Shown here: in pieces, positions 27,080-32,461 of the stretch
How positions within the stretch are numbered: the stretch's first letter is position 1
How the letters are laid out: each line of letters starts with the position of its first letter
Source of the DNA: Allocoleopsis franciscana PCC 7113
GTDB taxonomy: Bacteria; Cyanobacteriota; Cyanobacteriia; Cyanobacteriales; Coleofasciculaceae
Direction of reading: 5' to 3'
Assembly (NCBI RefSeq): GCF_000317515.1
Contig: NC_019738.1
Span: 2,878,001 to 2,942,000 of the forward strand
Length of the DNA: 64,000 bases
Notes under the pieces: model-generated
The model's database searches: none
The model's input: the letters and a program-made list of their open reading frames with translations, nothing else
What the model was told of the DNA's origin: nothing
Position numbers and translations under genes: made by a program

Positions 27080-27646
27080 TTATTCCTCTTCATCAAAGAC
27101 TGGAGGCCATACTTCAGCGATCGGCAGTTCCCAACCTGGAAATAGTTCGGGTATGGTTAATATTTCTCCATTACCCAGCACAGTTGATTCATCAGTAGGG
27201 CGATAAACAGTTACCGTTTCTTTATCAGGGTCAATGAGAATTCCTACTATAGCTCCCAGTGACAAAAACATCTGAATCTTTTCTTCTAGAGGTTTGATTC
27301 TGTCGCTTTGAGATTTAATTTCTACGACTAAATCGGGAACCATTTCGGCAAAGTAGCGCCGACGTTGTCGGAGACGAGAAGCGCGAACAAAAGAAACGTC
27401 TGGTGCTTTTAGGTCAGTGTTAGGTAGGATAAAACCACCGGCGGAGTCAAATACTCGCCCTAAACGACGAGGATAAACCCAGTTGGCAAGTAACCGACTA
27501 AATAAGACACCGATTTCGCTCGAATCAATATCTGATGGCCCCACTACGATAATCTTCCCATCTTCTAGTTCTAGCTGGTAATCATAACCTGCTTGGTTCA
27601 GGGTAGCTTGCAGTTGCTCCAAGTCTGTAACGGTCATCATTGGCAT
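27080..27646 (-). CDS. Uma2 family (DUF820) PD-(D/E)xK protein
   Basis: This 188-residue protein carries the Uma2 features. These are DLEQLQATLNQAGYDYQLELEDGKIIVVGPSD, PNTDLKAPDVSFVRASR with the catalytic Asp region, and VPDLVVEIKSQSDRIKPLEEKIQMFLSLGA with the E-x-K. The end reads YRPTDESTVLGNGEILTIPELFPGWEL. The family is hugely expanded in cyanobacteria; a nuclease fold is established, but the biological role is not. The 5' end and promoter region of this gene are duplicated at 29089-29296, which makes it the left boundary of an accessory island. Confidence 0.92.
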   Translation of the reverse strand: MPMMTVTDLEQLQATLNQAGYDYQLELEDGKIIVVGPSDIDSSEIGVLFSRLLANWVYPRRLGRVFDSAGGFILPNTDLKAPDVSFVRASRLRQRRRYFAEMVPDLVVEIKSQSDRIKPLEEKIQMFLSLGAIVGILIDPDKETVTVYRPTDESTVLGNGEILTIPELFPGWELPIAEVWPPVFDEEE

Positions 27647-27730
27647 GAGTACAATCTCCGATGTGATATGAGTGCTATCCGTATTCTATGAGAAGCGAAA
27701 TCGGGAGATGTATCTAATGTTGTAACGGCT

Positions 27731-27919
27731 TCATGAACAGGAAGCGTAGCTATCCCGTAGGGAATCGTACTGTTTGAGGTCTAGCTGTCTTAGCACCTCA
27801 TCAGGCAAGGTCAAGCGTCCCTCGTTCTCTAGCTCTAAAGTGTACTGCTTGGGTTGTTCAGGAGATGAGGTTTGAGCGATCAGTCTATTATTTCGTATAG
27901 CGGCGAGAAGACATCCCAC
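27731..27919 (-). pseudogene. AbrB/MazE-like antitoxin fragment ending in a dispersed repeat
   Basis: The 62-residue frame contains KQYTLELENEGRLTLPDEVLRQLDL, which looks like a swapped-hairpin AbrB DNA-binding domain. After that the frame runs into GATTCCCTACGGGATAGCTACGC (27743-27765 on the minus strand), a palindromic sequence of the kind dispersed through cyanobacterial genomes, and stops. The second half of the usual domain is missing, so it is probably a truncated antitoxin. It lies 28 bases downstream of the ParB-Mrr gene on the same strand. Confidence 0.5.
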
Positions 27920-27947
27920 TTAATCCACCAACAGCTTGAGGAACCTA

Positions 27948-28925
27948 TCATCGCATAGATTTAGGTATTAGTTTGAACCTAATAGCTAGTTCTTTTGTAG
28001 ATTTTTGAGATAAAATCCTTTCTTCGATATCTTTCCTTTCCCAAACAACAACTTCAATGCCTGGATGATTTTTTTTCCAGCTTGGTATATAAATATCTCG
28101 ACAATCAGGTGTCAAATGACTTGAAACAGCAATAACTAAAACTGTAGGTCTTTCCGCCTGCGACCAAGTAAATGCATCACTAATATGTCCAGAATTCACA
28201 CCTTGTTTTTTAAAGTGCTTGGCTTCAAGAAAGTAACGCTCTTCTCGAAATTCACCTAAACTTCCTGTAATTGTAAATCTAGCTTCAATATCTCTGCCTT
28301 TACCTCCAGGCCCACTTCTCCAGTCAATTTTAATTGGCTTCTTAGCATTTACTATTTCGTATACAAGTTCTTCAAATTGCTTGTCATCAATTGCAGTCCA
28401 ATTGAATCCTTTTGACTTTAATTTACTACTCTGACCAAGTCTAGATGTATCAACCAGGTGTAAACTGCCGTTTTTTGCCGCTCTTTTAATTATCTTGGGA
28501 GCCTTATACCCTACTTCCTTCGCTTTGTTACGCACAGTGCCCTCATCAACGCCGCATCTTTCGGCAATCTTACACCAAGGCCAATTCGTCTTCTCCTCTT
28601 CACCCATTGAATCAAGTAACGATAGCATCTTCTTTACTATTCGATCTTTCTGAATATTGTTGAGCTGGCCAGAAGGATCGGGATGCTTATCTACCAGAAT
28701 AGTATCTTGTCTAGCTTCTATAGCAGCTTTCAAAAGATTAAGTCCATAAACAAGCTTGTAGTCTTTGCCATCCCAAAAGCACATTATTGATGGATAGTTA
28801 TAGCCCTCTCGAATATCTTGGGCAAAGCGTTGAATGATACTTGGGTTCTCTTCTTCCCTAGACGCAAAACCATCATCAGTGCAAATCTTGTCTAGCGGAA
28901 TGTGTGTTTCTTCTGATTGGGTCAT
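27948..28925 (-). CDS. ParB-like / HTH / Mrr-type nuclease fusion protein
   Basis: This 325-residue protein has three parts. Residues 8-80 (IPLDKICTDDGFASREEEN, RFAQDIREGYNYPSIMCFWDGKDY, LVYGLNLLKAAIEA) follow the ParB/Srx N-terminal pattern. However, the G-x-H-R motif needed for CTP binding reads GLNLL. Residues 114-138 (WPWCKIAERCGVDEGTVRNKAKEVG) form a helix-turn-helix. Residues 178-305 match the Mrr restriction-endonuclease fold: FEELVYEIV, GGKGRDIEARF with Asp212, YFLEAKHFKK with E234-x-K236, TVLVIAVSSHLTPDCRD. The catalytic residues appear intact. No methylase accompanies it, so it could be a type IV-like or sequence-targeted defence nuclease. Function is inferred. Confidence 0.8.
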   Translation of the reverse strand: MTQSEETHIPLDKICTDDGFASREEENPSIIQRFAQDIREGYNYPSIMCFWDGKDYKLVYGLNLLKAAIEARQDTILVDKHPDPSGQLNNIQKDRIVKKMLSLLDSMGEEEKTNWPWCKIAERCGVDEGTVRNKAKEVGYKAPKIIKRAAKNGSLHLVDTSRLGQSSKLKSKGFNWTAIDDKQFEELVYEIVNAKKPIKIDWRSGPGGKGRDIEARFTITGSLGEFREERYFLEAKHFKKQGVNSGHISDAFTWSQAERPTVLVIAVSSHLTPDCRDIYIPSWKKNHPGIEVVVWERKDIEERILSQKSTKELAIRFKLIPKSMR

Positions 28926-29088
28926 AGTAGGACGCTGCTTATCTGTTTTATTAGTAGCGGCGAGTTTGATTCAACTAGGGTCAGATATTGGCATTTACGG
29001 TATTGGTAGCCAGGGGCTTTGGGGAGGGCGACATTGCTCAAAATCATTTAGCAGACGATTGATAACTTTTGTTGTAACAGCACAGATT

Positions 29089-29296
29089 TCTAGTTCTAGC
29101 GGGTAATCATAACCTGCTTGGTTGAGGGTAGCTTACAGCTTTTCCAAGTCTTTAACGGTCATCATTCCCATGAGACAATAGACCTCTTGCAAAAGTCGAA
29201 TTTTGACAGGCAAAACCAATACTTTCAGCCGTTATTTTCGTATTTATGCAAGAGGTCTAATCTCCGACGCTGTATGAGTGCCTATCCGTATTCTAA
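29089..29296 (-). pseudogene. Duplicated 5' fragment of the Uma2 gene, interrupted by a MITE
   Basis: Bases 29089-29179 and 29259-29296 match 27562-27694 closely. They cover the first 28 or so codons of the Uma2 gene at 27080-27646 and about 45 bases upstream of its start. The fragment lies in the same orientation. A 79-bp MITE is inserted at 29180-29258. The remainder of the Uma2 gene is absent. Confidence 0.8.
29180..29258. mobile_element. 79-bp MITE, TIR AGACCTCTTGCA
   Basis: AGACCTCTTGCA at 29180-29191 is perfectly inverted at 29247-29258. AAT flanks both sides. The intact homologous site near 27650 reads ACAATCTCC with a single AAT, so the empty-site structure is visible in the same window. 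The interior has no coding capacity. Confidence 0.88.
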
Positions 29297-29308
29297 ATTT
29301 GCTTCACC

Positions 29309-32300
29309 TCAAACCTTACAAACTACTGGTGGATGCTGCTGCAACACCCCCTGCAAATACTGTCCCGTATACGACCTCTGATTCTGAGCCACATCCTCCG
29401 GCGTTCCCACCACAATTACCTCTCCCCCTTTATCCCCTCCTTCTGGCCCTAAATCAATCACCCAATCCGCACAGCGAATCACATCTAAATTATGTTCAAT
29501 CACCAAAATTGAATTCCCCTTATCTACCAATCGCTGCAACACATTGAGTAAATGATGGACATCGTAAAACGATAAACCCGTCGTCGGTTCATCAATTAAA
29601 TAAAGCGTCTTCCCTGTAGCACGACGAGCAAGTTCCGAAGCTAATTTCACTCGCTGCGCCTCACCTCCTGATAACGTGGGTGCCGGTTGTCCTAAATGAA
29701 TGTAACCTAACCCAACATCTAATAAAGTTTGTAGTCGCGTGGACGCTCTGGGGATGTTTTTAAATACTTCCAGTGCTTCTTCTACCGTCATATTCAGAAC
29801 ATCGGCGATGGAATGTCCCTTATATTTCACCTGCAACGTTTCTCGGTTGTATCGCGCCCCCTTACAAACTTCACACTGCACATAAACATCGGGCAGGAAA
29901 TTCATCTCAATTACATTTACCCCCTGCCCACCACAAGCTTCGCAGCGCCCGCCTTTGACATTAAAGGAAAATTGCCCTGCTTTGTAACCTCTAGCTTTCG
30001 CTTCAATGGTTTGGGCAAAGATTTCCCGAATTGCATCAAAAATACCGGTATACGTTGCTGGGTTAGAACGGGGAGTACGACCGATAGGAGATTGGTCAAT
30101 GACAATCGCTTTATCAATTGCATTCAGCCCTTTAATCTTCTCTAATTCTTTGGGAAAGGGAACCTTCCGCGTCAAGTGATGCTGCAAAGCCGGATAAAGC
30201 AATTCATTCACCAACGTCGATTTCCCCGAACCCGAAACTCCCGTAATGCAAACCAGCTTACCCAAGGGAATTTCCACCGTTATGTGTTGCAGGTTGTTGC
30301 GGTGGGCATCTTTAATTACCAGCGATCGCCCATTTCCCTTTCTCCTCTCTGCTGGTGTTTCAATCACCCTGCGCCCGGATAAATAAGCACCCGTTAAGGA
30401 TTCCTCAGCCCCTAACAATGTCTCCAAATTCCCCTGCGCGACAATCTGCCCCCCATGAATCCCCGCACCAGGGCCAATATCAACCAAGTAGTCAGCCGCA
30501 CGAATCGTATCTTCATCGTGTTCCACCACAATTAAAGTATTTCCCAAATCCCGCAATTTAGTTAGGGTTTGGAGCAAGCGCCCATTATCTCGTTGATGCA
30601 ATCCAATGCTCGGTTCATCTAATACATAAAGCACGCCCGTTAGACCTGCACCAATTTGCGTGGCAAGACGAATCCGCTGCGCTTCTCCACCGGAAAGCGT
30701 CATGGCAGCACGGTCAAGGGTGAGGTAATCTAAACCGACATCCAGGAGAAATTGCAAACGCGCTTTAATTTCTCGCAGTGCTAAGTCACCGATTTGCGCT
30801 TGGCGATCGCTCAATTGCAACTGCTCGATTCGTTCCCGACTTTCTTGAATGGAAACGCTAGTTAAATCCCGAATGCGAAATTGTCCTAACCTCACAGCCA
30901 AGGCTTCTGGTTTTAAGCGTTTTCCCTGGCAAACTTCACAAGGTTGGTCAATTAAATATTGTTCCAGTTTCTGTTTTTGCAAGTCAGAACCCGTTTCATC
31001 GTACTGTTTTTGCAGAATCTTAATTACTCCGGCATAGTGTCGGTAATCGTTCCGTTCTTCGATCCAAATTGCTTTTTCAGCACCATACAGAAGCACCTGT
31101 TTCTGTTCATCCGTTAGGTGGTTCCAGCGGGTTTGGATTTCAAAACCATACGCTTGCCCCACACTATAAAGCAGGGAGAGGTAATAGGAATTATCTTTAT
31201 CCGACCAAGGTGCGATCGCAGCATAGACGGGTGCCTCTGGGTCAGGTACAACCAATTCAGGTGAGAAAGTACGCAAACTCCCTAATCCGTGACAGTGAGG
31301 GCAAGCCCCATAGGGAGAGTTGAAGGAAAACAGTCGAGGCGATAATTCCTCCATTACCGCCCCGTGTTCTGGGCAAGCAAAATTCTCGGAAAAGACTAAT
31401 TCTTTGGCTGATTTGTGATGGGAATCCTCGCTATTTGTAGGATTTTCTGTTATGGTACTCCCATGGTTTACTGCATCCTCTGACTCTACGGAAGTATCAT
31501 TTAATACCTCCACCACCGCAATTCCACCAGTACGCTTCAGGCAAGTGGAGAGAGAATCCGTCAGACGTTCCTGCAAATCAGGCTTCTTGATCAGTCGGTC
31601 AACCACGACTTCAATGTTGTGGGTATAATTTTTATCTAATTCAATCGAATCACTGAGCTCTCGAACCTCGCCATTGACCCTCACGCGCACAAATCCTTCC
31701 GAGGCAAGACTGGATAGTAGTTTCTTGTGGGTGCCTTTTTTACCCCGGACAACGGGAGCGAGGATTTGGAAACGAGTGCGGTCGGGAAGTTCCAGGATGC
31801 GATCGCACATCTGGTCGATGGTTTGGGGGGCAATATTGCGATCGCAAATTGGGCAATGGGGTTCTCCTGCCCGTCCGAACAACAAGCGCAAGTAGTCGTA
31901 AATCTCGGTAACCGTACCCACGGTAGAGCGGGGGTTATTGGAGGTAGATTTCTGGTCTATCGAGATAGCGGGACTTAAACCCTCAATCACATCCACATCC
32001 GGCTTATCCAACTGCCCCAAGAATTGCCGCGCATAGGCACTAAGGGACTCGACGTAGCGGCGCTGCCCTTCGGCAAAGATGGTGTCAAAGGCAAGGGAGG
32101 ACTTACCGGAACCGGAGACACCCGTGAAAACGATGAGGCGATCGCGCGGCAGTTCCAAGTCAACATTCTTCAGGTTGTGCTGCCTCGCGCCCCGAATCCG
32201 AATCTCGTTGAGGTTGTTGCTGGTGGAATGATGCCGCCCATTGGTGTGCATAGAGGTTGCAGGCAAGGTCTCACCGGGTAGGGCATCAGATAGATCGATA

Positions 32301-32311
32301 GGCTCAGGCAT
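29309..32311 (-). CDS. uvrA: UvrABC excinuclease subunit A
   Basis: This is the damage-recognition ATPase of nucleotide excision repair. The start is taken as ATG 32311 (1000 residues); a TTG nine bases upstream is in frame. It has two ABC modules. The first has Walker [16 protein letters not shown], signature [12 protein letters not shown] and [13 protein letters not shown]; the second has [32 protein letters not shown] and [11 protein letters not shown]. Zinc-binding cysteines occur in CPEHGAV with CPHCHG, in CEVCQGKR, and in CEACGGQG with [10 protein letters not shown]. An acidic linker near residue 300 ([20 protein letters not shown]) is a variable insert. Its stop lies beside the truncated Uma2 copy. 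Confidence 0.98.
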
Positions 32312-32461
32312 AGGAGGCAAGCGAAACAGTGCTTAATGATCTTAACGCTGTGCCCTCTAGACCGGAGTGAATCCAGCGATGGGTATTAGGAACGAAATTC
32401 AGCTAGTGTTAAGCTGTGATGCATCTAAATTGCATACCTTTGTGAGGAGATAAAAACTCTT

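Follow-up and report, generated by a model that had tools for sequence, protein, structure and literature searches.

Proteins of the ParB-CTPase fold (PF02195) have already been described as fusions to DNA enzymes, namely HNH nucleases and methyltransferases (PMC12704722), and the word 'Mrr' is missing from the main text of that survey. GmrSD consists of DUF262 and DUF1524, that is, of a ParB/Srx-fold N-terminal domain and an HNH-type nuclease in one chain (PMC4619093). An N-terminal DNA-recognition domain followed by a C-terminal Mrr-like nuclease is the order of parts in the Type IV enzymes AspBHI, MspJI and E. coli Mrr, for the last of which modelling gives an N-terminal winged helix (PMC3874153). 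No ParB-Mrr fusion was found in the open-access literature.

We analysed a stretch of 64,000 nucleotides from Allocoleopsis franciscana PCC 7113 (the window), in which an open reading frame of 325 residues, with an ATG start and zero internal stops, is predicted to encode such a protein. It shares the order of parts with the Type IV enzymes but its recognition domain is a ParB/Srx domain with a helix-turn-helix (HTH). Like GmrSD, it carries a ParB/Srx-fold N-terminal domain and a nuclease in a single chain; in contrast to GmrSD, with its HNH-type nuclease and nucleotide-using DUF262, the nuclease is of the Mrr type and the nucleotide motif is lost. Neither DUF262 nor DUF1524 gave a Pfam match to the fusion protein at E<=1, and the nuclease half matches Mrr_cat. 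An earlier note on this DNA had read the chain as a ParB-type domain, an HTH and an Mrr-type nuclease, and this three-part organization is borne out by the reading frame, by a profile of relatives and by the predicted model. The features of the gene are as follows.

27948-28925, minus strand: fusion gene for a ParB/Srx domain, an HTH and an Mrr-like nuclease (open reading frame and predicted model)
28425-28925, minus strand: N-half, residues 1-167, diverged phage/plasmid-type ParB_N+HTH module (profile match, alignments, predicted fold of residues 1-87)
28734-28748, minus strand: degenerate P-motif, residues 60-64, family D-G-F-H-R changed to Y-G-L-N-L (alignment)
28530-28583, minus strand: HTH stretch, residues 115-132, with W115, A121, C124, V126 and V131 retained (column comparison, model helices)
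27951-28424, minus strand: C-half, residues 168-325, Mrr-like PD-(D/E)xK nuclease with E186, D212 and E234-x-K236 (alignment, Pfam, model)

ParB_N (PF02195) has no Pfam match in the fusion protein at E<=1 and is matched only by intermediate sequences. Despite this, a profile (A3) to which only relatives of the module contributed matches the N-half with E=1.1e-11, covering positions 3-172 of its 173, and the N-half is the best match to this relatives-only profile in the genome. The Pfam match to HTH_23 is below threshold (E 0.03-0.09) but lies inside the same homologous module, whose pattern reads GGTQPR...WLADGFHR...GANAxHGLRR...DKRRAV...WSDREIARxCGV...TxHGTxxxMxTxNIG. The N-half ends in the terminal motif of the module, of the form xxHGxxxxMxTxNIGK (KNGSLHLVDTSRLGQ). 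Scanning of viral contigs revealed at least 404 encoded relatives of the module, 80 of which were retained, and further relatives are present on many cyanobacterial plasmids and contigs. All three of the viral examples scanned match PHROG 1033, a ParB-like partition protein. The ParB/Srx fold, the HTH and the terminal motif are homologous between the PHROG 1033/ParB-CTPase-fold proteins and the N-half, which in its sequence is a diverged member of this phage/plasmid ParB+HTH module; the window protein differs in the absence of the P-motif arginine and of box III and in the attached nuclease. Some module members carry DNA enzymes, such as a DNA methyltransferase (methylase-type, phrog_359) in L123 and RuvC (Pfam) in L016.

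Two sets of other ParB fusions came to light among these proteins. A phage-type ParB/HTH module joined to a RuvC-like domain occurs in cyanobacteria (L016, confirmed by Pfam, and L019, by sequence similarity), and the ParB modules L163, L164, L165 and L167 end in tails similar to a degenerate DNA methylase (RLGKSHYLFCGD...), with several copies in genome G587.

The fusion protein keeps 20 of the 47 columns that reach 90% conservation across the phage modules used. Those kept in the first domain include G41, P45, D52, G53, Y56, L58 and G61, and all five conserved HTH columns at 115-131 are kept. The G-x-H-R motif of ParB had been read as GLNLL in the earlier note, and the alignment agrees on a change to GLNL, the glycine (G61) being present while the histidine and arginine are gone. 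Box III is lost too: hardly anything of the HGLRR stretch is left, about 13 residues are deleted between it and the P-motif, and almost every pocket column is lost. All 80 viral members, a set selected for G-x-H, have the arginine of the P-motif GxxR, as do 15 of 19 cyanobacterial members; the other four have T or Q. Purified ParB-fold fusions no longer bind nucleotide once the P-motif arginine is replaced by alanine (PMC12704722), and since it is missing here, nucleotide binding has likely been lost in the fusion protein.

The C-half scores below the Pfam cut-off of 21 bits for Mrr_cat (PF04471), with 17.6 bits (E 0.0044) for the whole protein and 19.5 bits (E 0.0011) for the C-half alone. 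The cut-off is exceeded by nuclease relatives from Brasilonema (56-57% identity) and genome G291 (about 52%), the relative of 56% identity (P0002) reaching 30.8 bits. Identity to the relatives over the nuclease domain ranges from 48 to 57%, and E186, D212, E234 and K236 are invariant across five aligned proteins; Asp212 and E234-x-K236 are thus intact at the positions given in the earlier note, to which E186 can be added. The window protein resembles the uvrA-adjacent nucleases of L001 and G291, which belong with Mrr_cat and the candidate-defence model PDC-M58A, in its nuclease (52-57% identity), its active site and its position after uvrA. Unlike them it has the ParB/HTH part and lacks their C-terminal extension of about 120 residues, which is modelled in Brasilonema as helical with low confidence (pLDDT about 35-50 across much of it). 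Close relatives of the nuclease are present in 3 of 217 genomes of the family of G291, one of which (G729) is presumably the Brasilonema genome of L001, and a nuclease profile found zero relatives in the viral contigs. Judged from these searches, the nuclease appears as a rare cyanobacterial protein. Its relatives match the PADLOC model PDC-M58A with E values of 4e-11 to 6e-8; none of the nine neighbouring proteins scanned beside the fusion gene is a second PDC-M58 component, and nothing on PDC-M58 was found in the open-access literature.

Sequence comparison of the fusion protein with PDB chains gave zero matches at E<=1. An AlphaFold2 model was obtained from 26 aligned sequences (mean pLDDT 79, pTM 0.48) and aligned with solved structures using VIA-align. 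Since the pTM is moderate and the linker at residues 164-171 has low confidence, the relative placing of the two halves is unreliable. The model comprises a ParB/sulfiredoxin fold (residues 1-87), an HTH region (about 90-137, with helices at 117-124 and 128-137) and an Mrr-like nuclease (about 166-318). Residues 5-87 align with ParB (7bnr; Z 11.8, rmsd 1.8 A over 82 residues), and the N-terminal domain also aligns with Srx of A. thaliana (6ky4; Z 12.2, rmsd 2.3 A over 82 residues). The nuclease half (from 166/167 to 318) aligns with AspBHI (Z 12.2, rmsd 3.4 A over 142 residues) and MspJI (Z 11.8, rmsd 3.3 A over 144 residues), followed by the N-terminal nuclease domain of Avs4 (Z 10.9). The predicted structure is therefore one of a ParB fold and an undisrupted nuclease core, and the idea of a DNA-recognition module joined to a nuclease is supported by the homology and the predicted fold of its parts.

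The surroundings of the gene contain three further features.

29309-32320, minus strand: uvrA, immediately upstream of the fusion gene (gene map; same placement in Brasilonema and G291)
27686-29320, no strand: variable slot between uvrA and the Uma2 gene, without an alignable counterpart in the same-genus genome G133, where a TPR-type gene for 600 aa takes its place (genome alignment)
29088-29174, minus strand: decayed copy of the Uma2 5' end, with an in-frame stop (90% identity over 87 nt to 27563-27649)

The backbone alignable with G133, the only same-genus genome sampled, ends at 27685 and restarts at 29321. The slot in the window holds the fusion gene, the decayed Uma2 duplicate and short remnants. 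A possible AbrB/MazE-like antitoxin remnant (YTLELENEGRLTLPDEVLRQLDLKQ) was recognized by eye only on the minus strand at 27740-27905. Upstream of the Uma2 duplicate, at 29174-29264, is an inverted repeat with 21-nt arms (86% complementary) which contains GACCTCTTGCA and resembles a small insertion-type element.

The gap upstream of the fusion gene has no convincing sigma-70-type promoter. A defence scan of the neighbours gave a candidate-model match for Uma2 and otherwise matches of a generic ATPase/kinase kind, the PADLOC matches of uvrA (mad3) and of kinases (PD-T4-6) being judged as such and set aside. The fusion gene has housekeeping genes around it, and the neighbours scanned form no defence island. 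Recurrence beside defence genes, which would have been expected for a defence protein, is hardly seen among the relatives either: two of the three close relatives follow uvrA, and only the one in G751 lies near a protein matching LmuA/DUF4297. This G751 homologue is away from uvrA; a tyrosine integrase is its neighbour, and about 3.5 kb away is the LmuA/DUF4297-matching protein of 1430 aa. The latter (L080:12897-17189), with the similarity in its N-terminus and with the integrase and the nuclease relative nearby, marks a possible defence island.

The nuclease gene is located directly downstream of uvrA and on the same strand in three of the four close homologues, including the one in the window, with gaps of about 90 bp and 92 bp in Brasilonema and G291 and of 383 bp in the window. 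The relatives in this position have no ParB part and end in another C-terminal extension, which suggests that the gene arose by fusion next to uvrA. In the alignment the junction comes after the NIGK-like motif of the module and at the start codon of the nuclease. GC3 is 38% in the N-half, 21% in the C-half (overall GC 35%) and 48% in uvrA, and the contrast between the halves is consistent with two origins; the nuclease gene is AT-rich in Brasilonema and G291 as well, so that the low GC reflects the nuclease family as much as a recent arrival. From the anatomy of the locus we infer that a uvrA-adjacent Mrr-like nuclease may have lost its own C-terminal extension and gained a phage/plasmid-type ParB/Srx+HTH module at its start codon.

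The reading that we tentatively put forward, at somewhat less than even confidence, is that of a restriction-like DNA endonuclease in one chain, which arose by gene fusion and is aimed by the captured phage-type HTH. The HTH would bind DNA without nucleotide control, the ParB/Srx domain possibly serving for dimerization or as a rigid scaffold, and would place the nuclease on the target, most likely phage or plasmid DNA with sites like those bound by the ParB-like ancestors; metal-dependent cleavage would then destroy the invader. The phage or plasmid target is suggested by the origin of the module, by the PDC-M58A candidate match and by the neighbourhood of the G751 homologue. The narrower proposal, in which a phage ParB-type HTH turned to the use of the host would direct nucleotide-independent restriction to matching centromere-like sites of phages or plasmids, or to their vicinity, is doubtful. 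The restriction reading draws on the predicted folding of both halves, the retention of the catalytic and HTH residues, the loss of the pocket and the DNA enzymes carried by other module members; counted against it are the single genome, the decayed flanking fragments, the lack of a defence island and the lack of a convincing promoter.

Several of these points could also be explained by a recent, species-specific chance fusion in the variable slot after uvrA, maybe unexpressed or decaying and with no settled function, and we regard this as unlikely but deserving serious weight. Only one copy is known from the searches. No close relatives of the fusion were found in viral contigs and phages, plasmids gave half-matches only, and genome contigs gave the Brasilonema nuclease half only. 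Among the overlapping order and class samples (389 and 388 genomes), no protein beyond the window's own matched across both halves. The two longest plasmid half-matches (H1 and H2) proved to be a methyltransferase and a plain ParB protein, a protein of G587 matched at 9-205 reads as a ParB with a methylase-like tail, and an NCBIfam identity as teicoplanin TcaA was rejected at 10.8 bits against a cut-off of 550. The search for the same domain order thus yielded no second ParB-Mrr fusion in the genomes, plasmids, phages and viral contigs sampled, and a fusion confined to one genome among those searched gives no evidence of selection keeping it. The differing slot content in G133, the remnants flanking the gene, the degenerate ParB motifs and the unclear promoter suit a relic as well. 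However, the frame is intact over its whole length of 325 codons, none of the four catalytic residues has changed at an identity of 48-57% to the relatives, and the HTH core is kept while the nucleotide pocket is lost, which is unlike random decay.

Improbable, to a greater degree, is a Type IV enzyme, modification-dependent like Mrr and MspJI, which cuts modified DNA only and to which the ParB/HTH part merely adds DNA affinity. The closest solved nuclease folds, AspBHI and MspJI, are both modification-dependent and have the same order of recognition domain and nuclease, but this fold also serves enzymes without modification dependence. The N-terminal domain here models as ParB/Srx and not as SRA-like; SRA is not among the listed structural matches, a listing that is no proof of absence. 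The earlier note had stated that no methylase is near, which holds for the neighbours examined and not for the genome, where 10 matches to the C5-methylase family PF00145 are present elsewhere. A general 5mC-dependent cutter would attack its own host in such a genome, which makes this mode less likely.

The position after uvrA raises the thought of a DNA-repair accessory acting with UvrA and mirrored in the uvrA-nuclease gene pair, for which we see a slim chance. A clear uvrA is present in 15 other genomes of the window's family, and the DNA read downstream of it contains neither the nuclease nor Uma2 (two of the contigs are short), 214 of the 217 genomes of the G291 family are without close relatives, the G751 homologue is not near uvrA, and the adjacency may stem from one acquisition event. 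Slimmer still is the chance of a ParB-like partition protein or transcription regulator whose nuclease domain would serve for DNA binding or dimerization alone, as the homology of the N-half to PHROG 1033 might suggest, given the intact catalytic residues, the loss of the P-motif and box III, and the absence of an adjacent parA (the neighbours are uvrA, Uma2, a 136-aa protein and MATE).

At the level of sequence, the ParB-Mrr pairing adds a new partner, with a putative function and in one genome, to the known habit of ParB-fold proteins to fuse with DNA enzymes. The gene pair of uvrA followed by an Mrr-like nuclease with an uncharacterised C-terminal extension, found in two Nostocaceae (L001:7991-8842 and L029:9000-9854), is a second and separate lead. 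If the restriction-like fusion protein is active, Mrr-type nucleases would join the list of ParB-fold partners in an apparently nucleotide-independent version, and the locus would show a new restriction specificity arising in one step from a mobile-element DNA-binding module and a spare nuclease.
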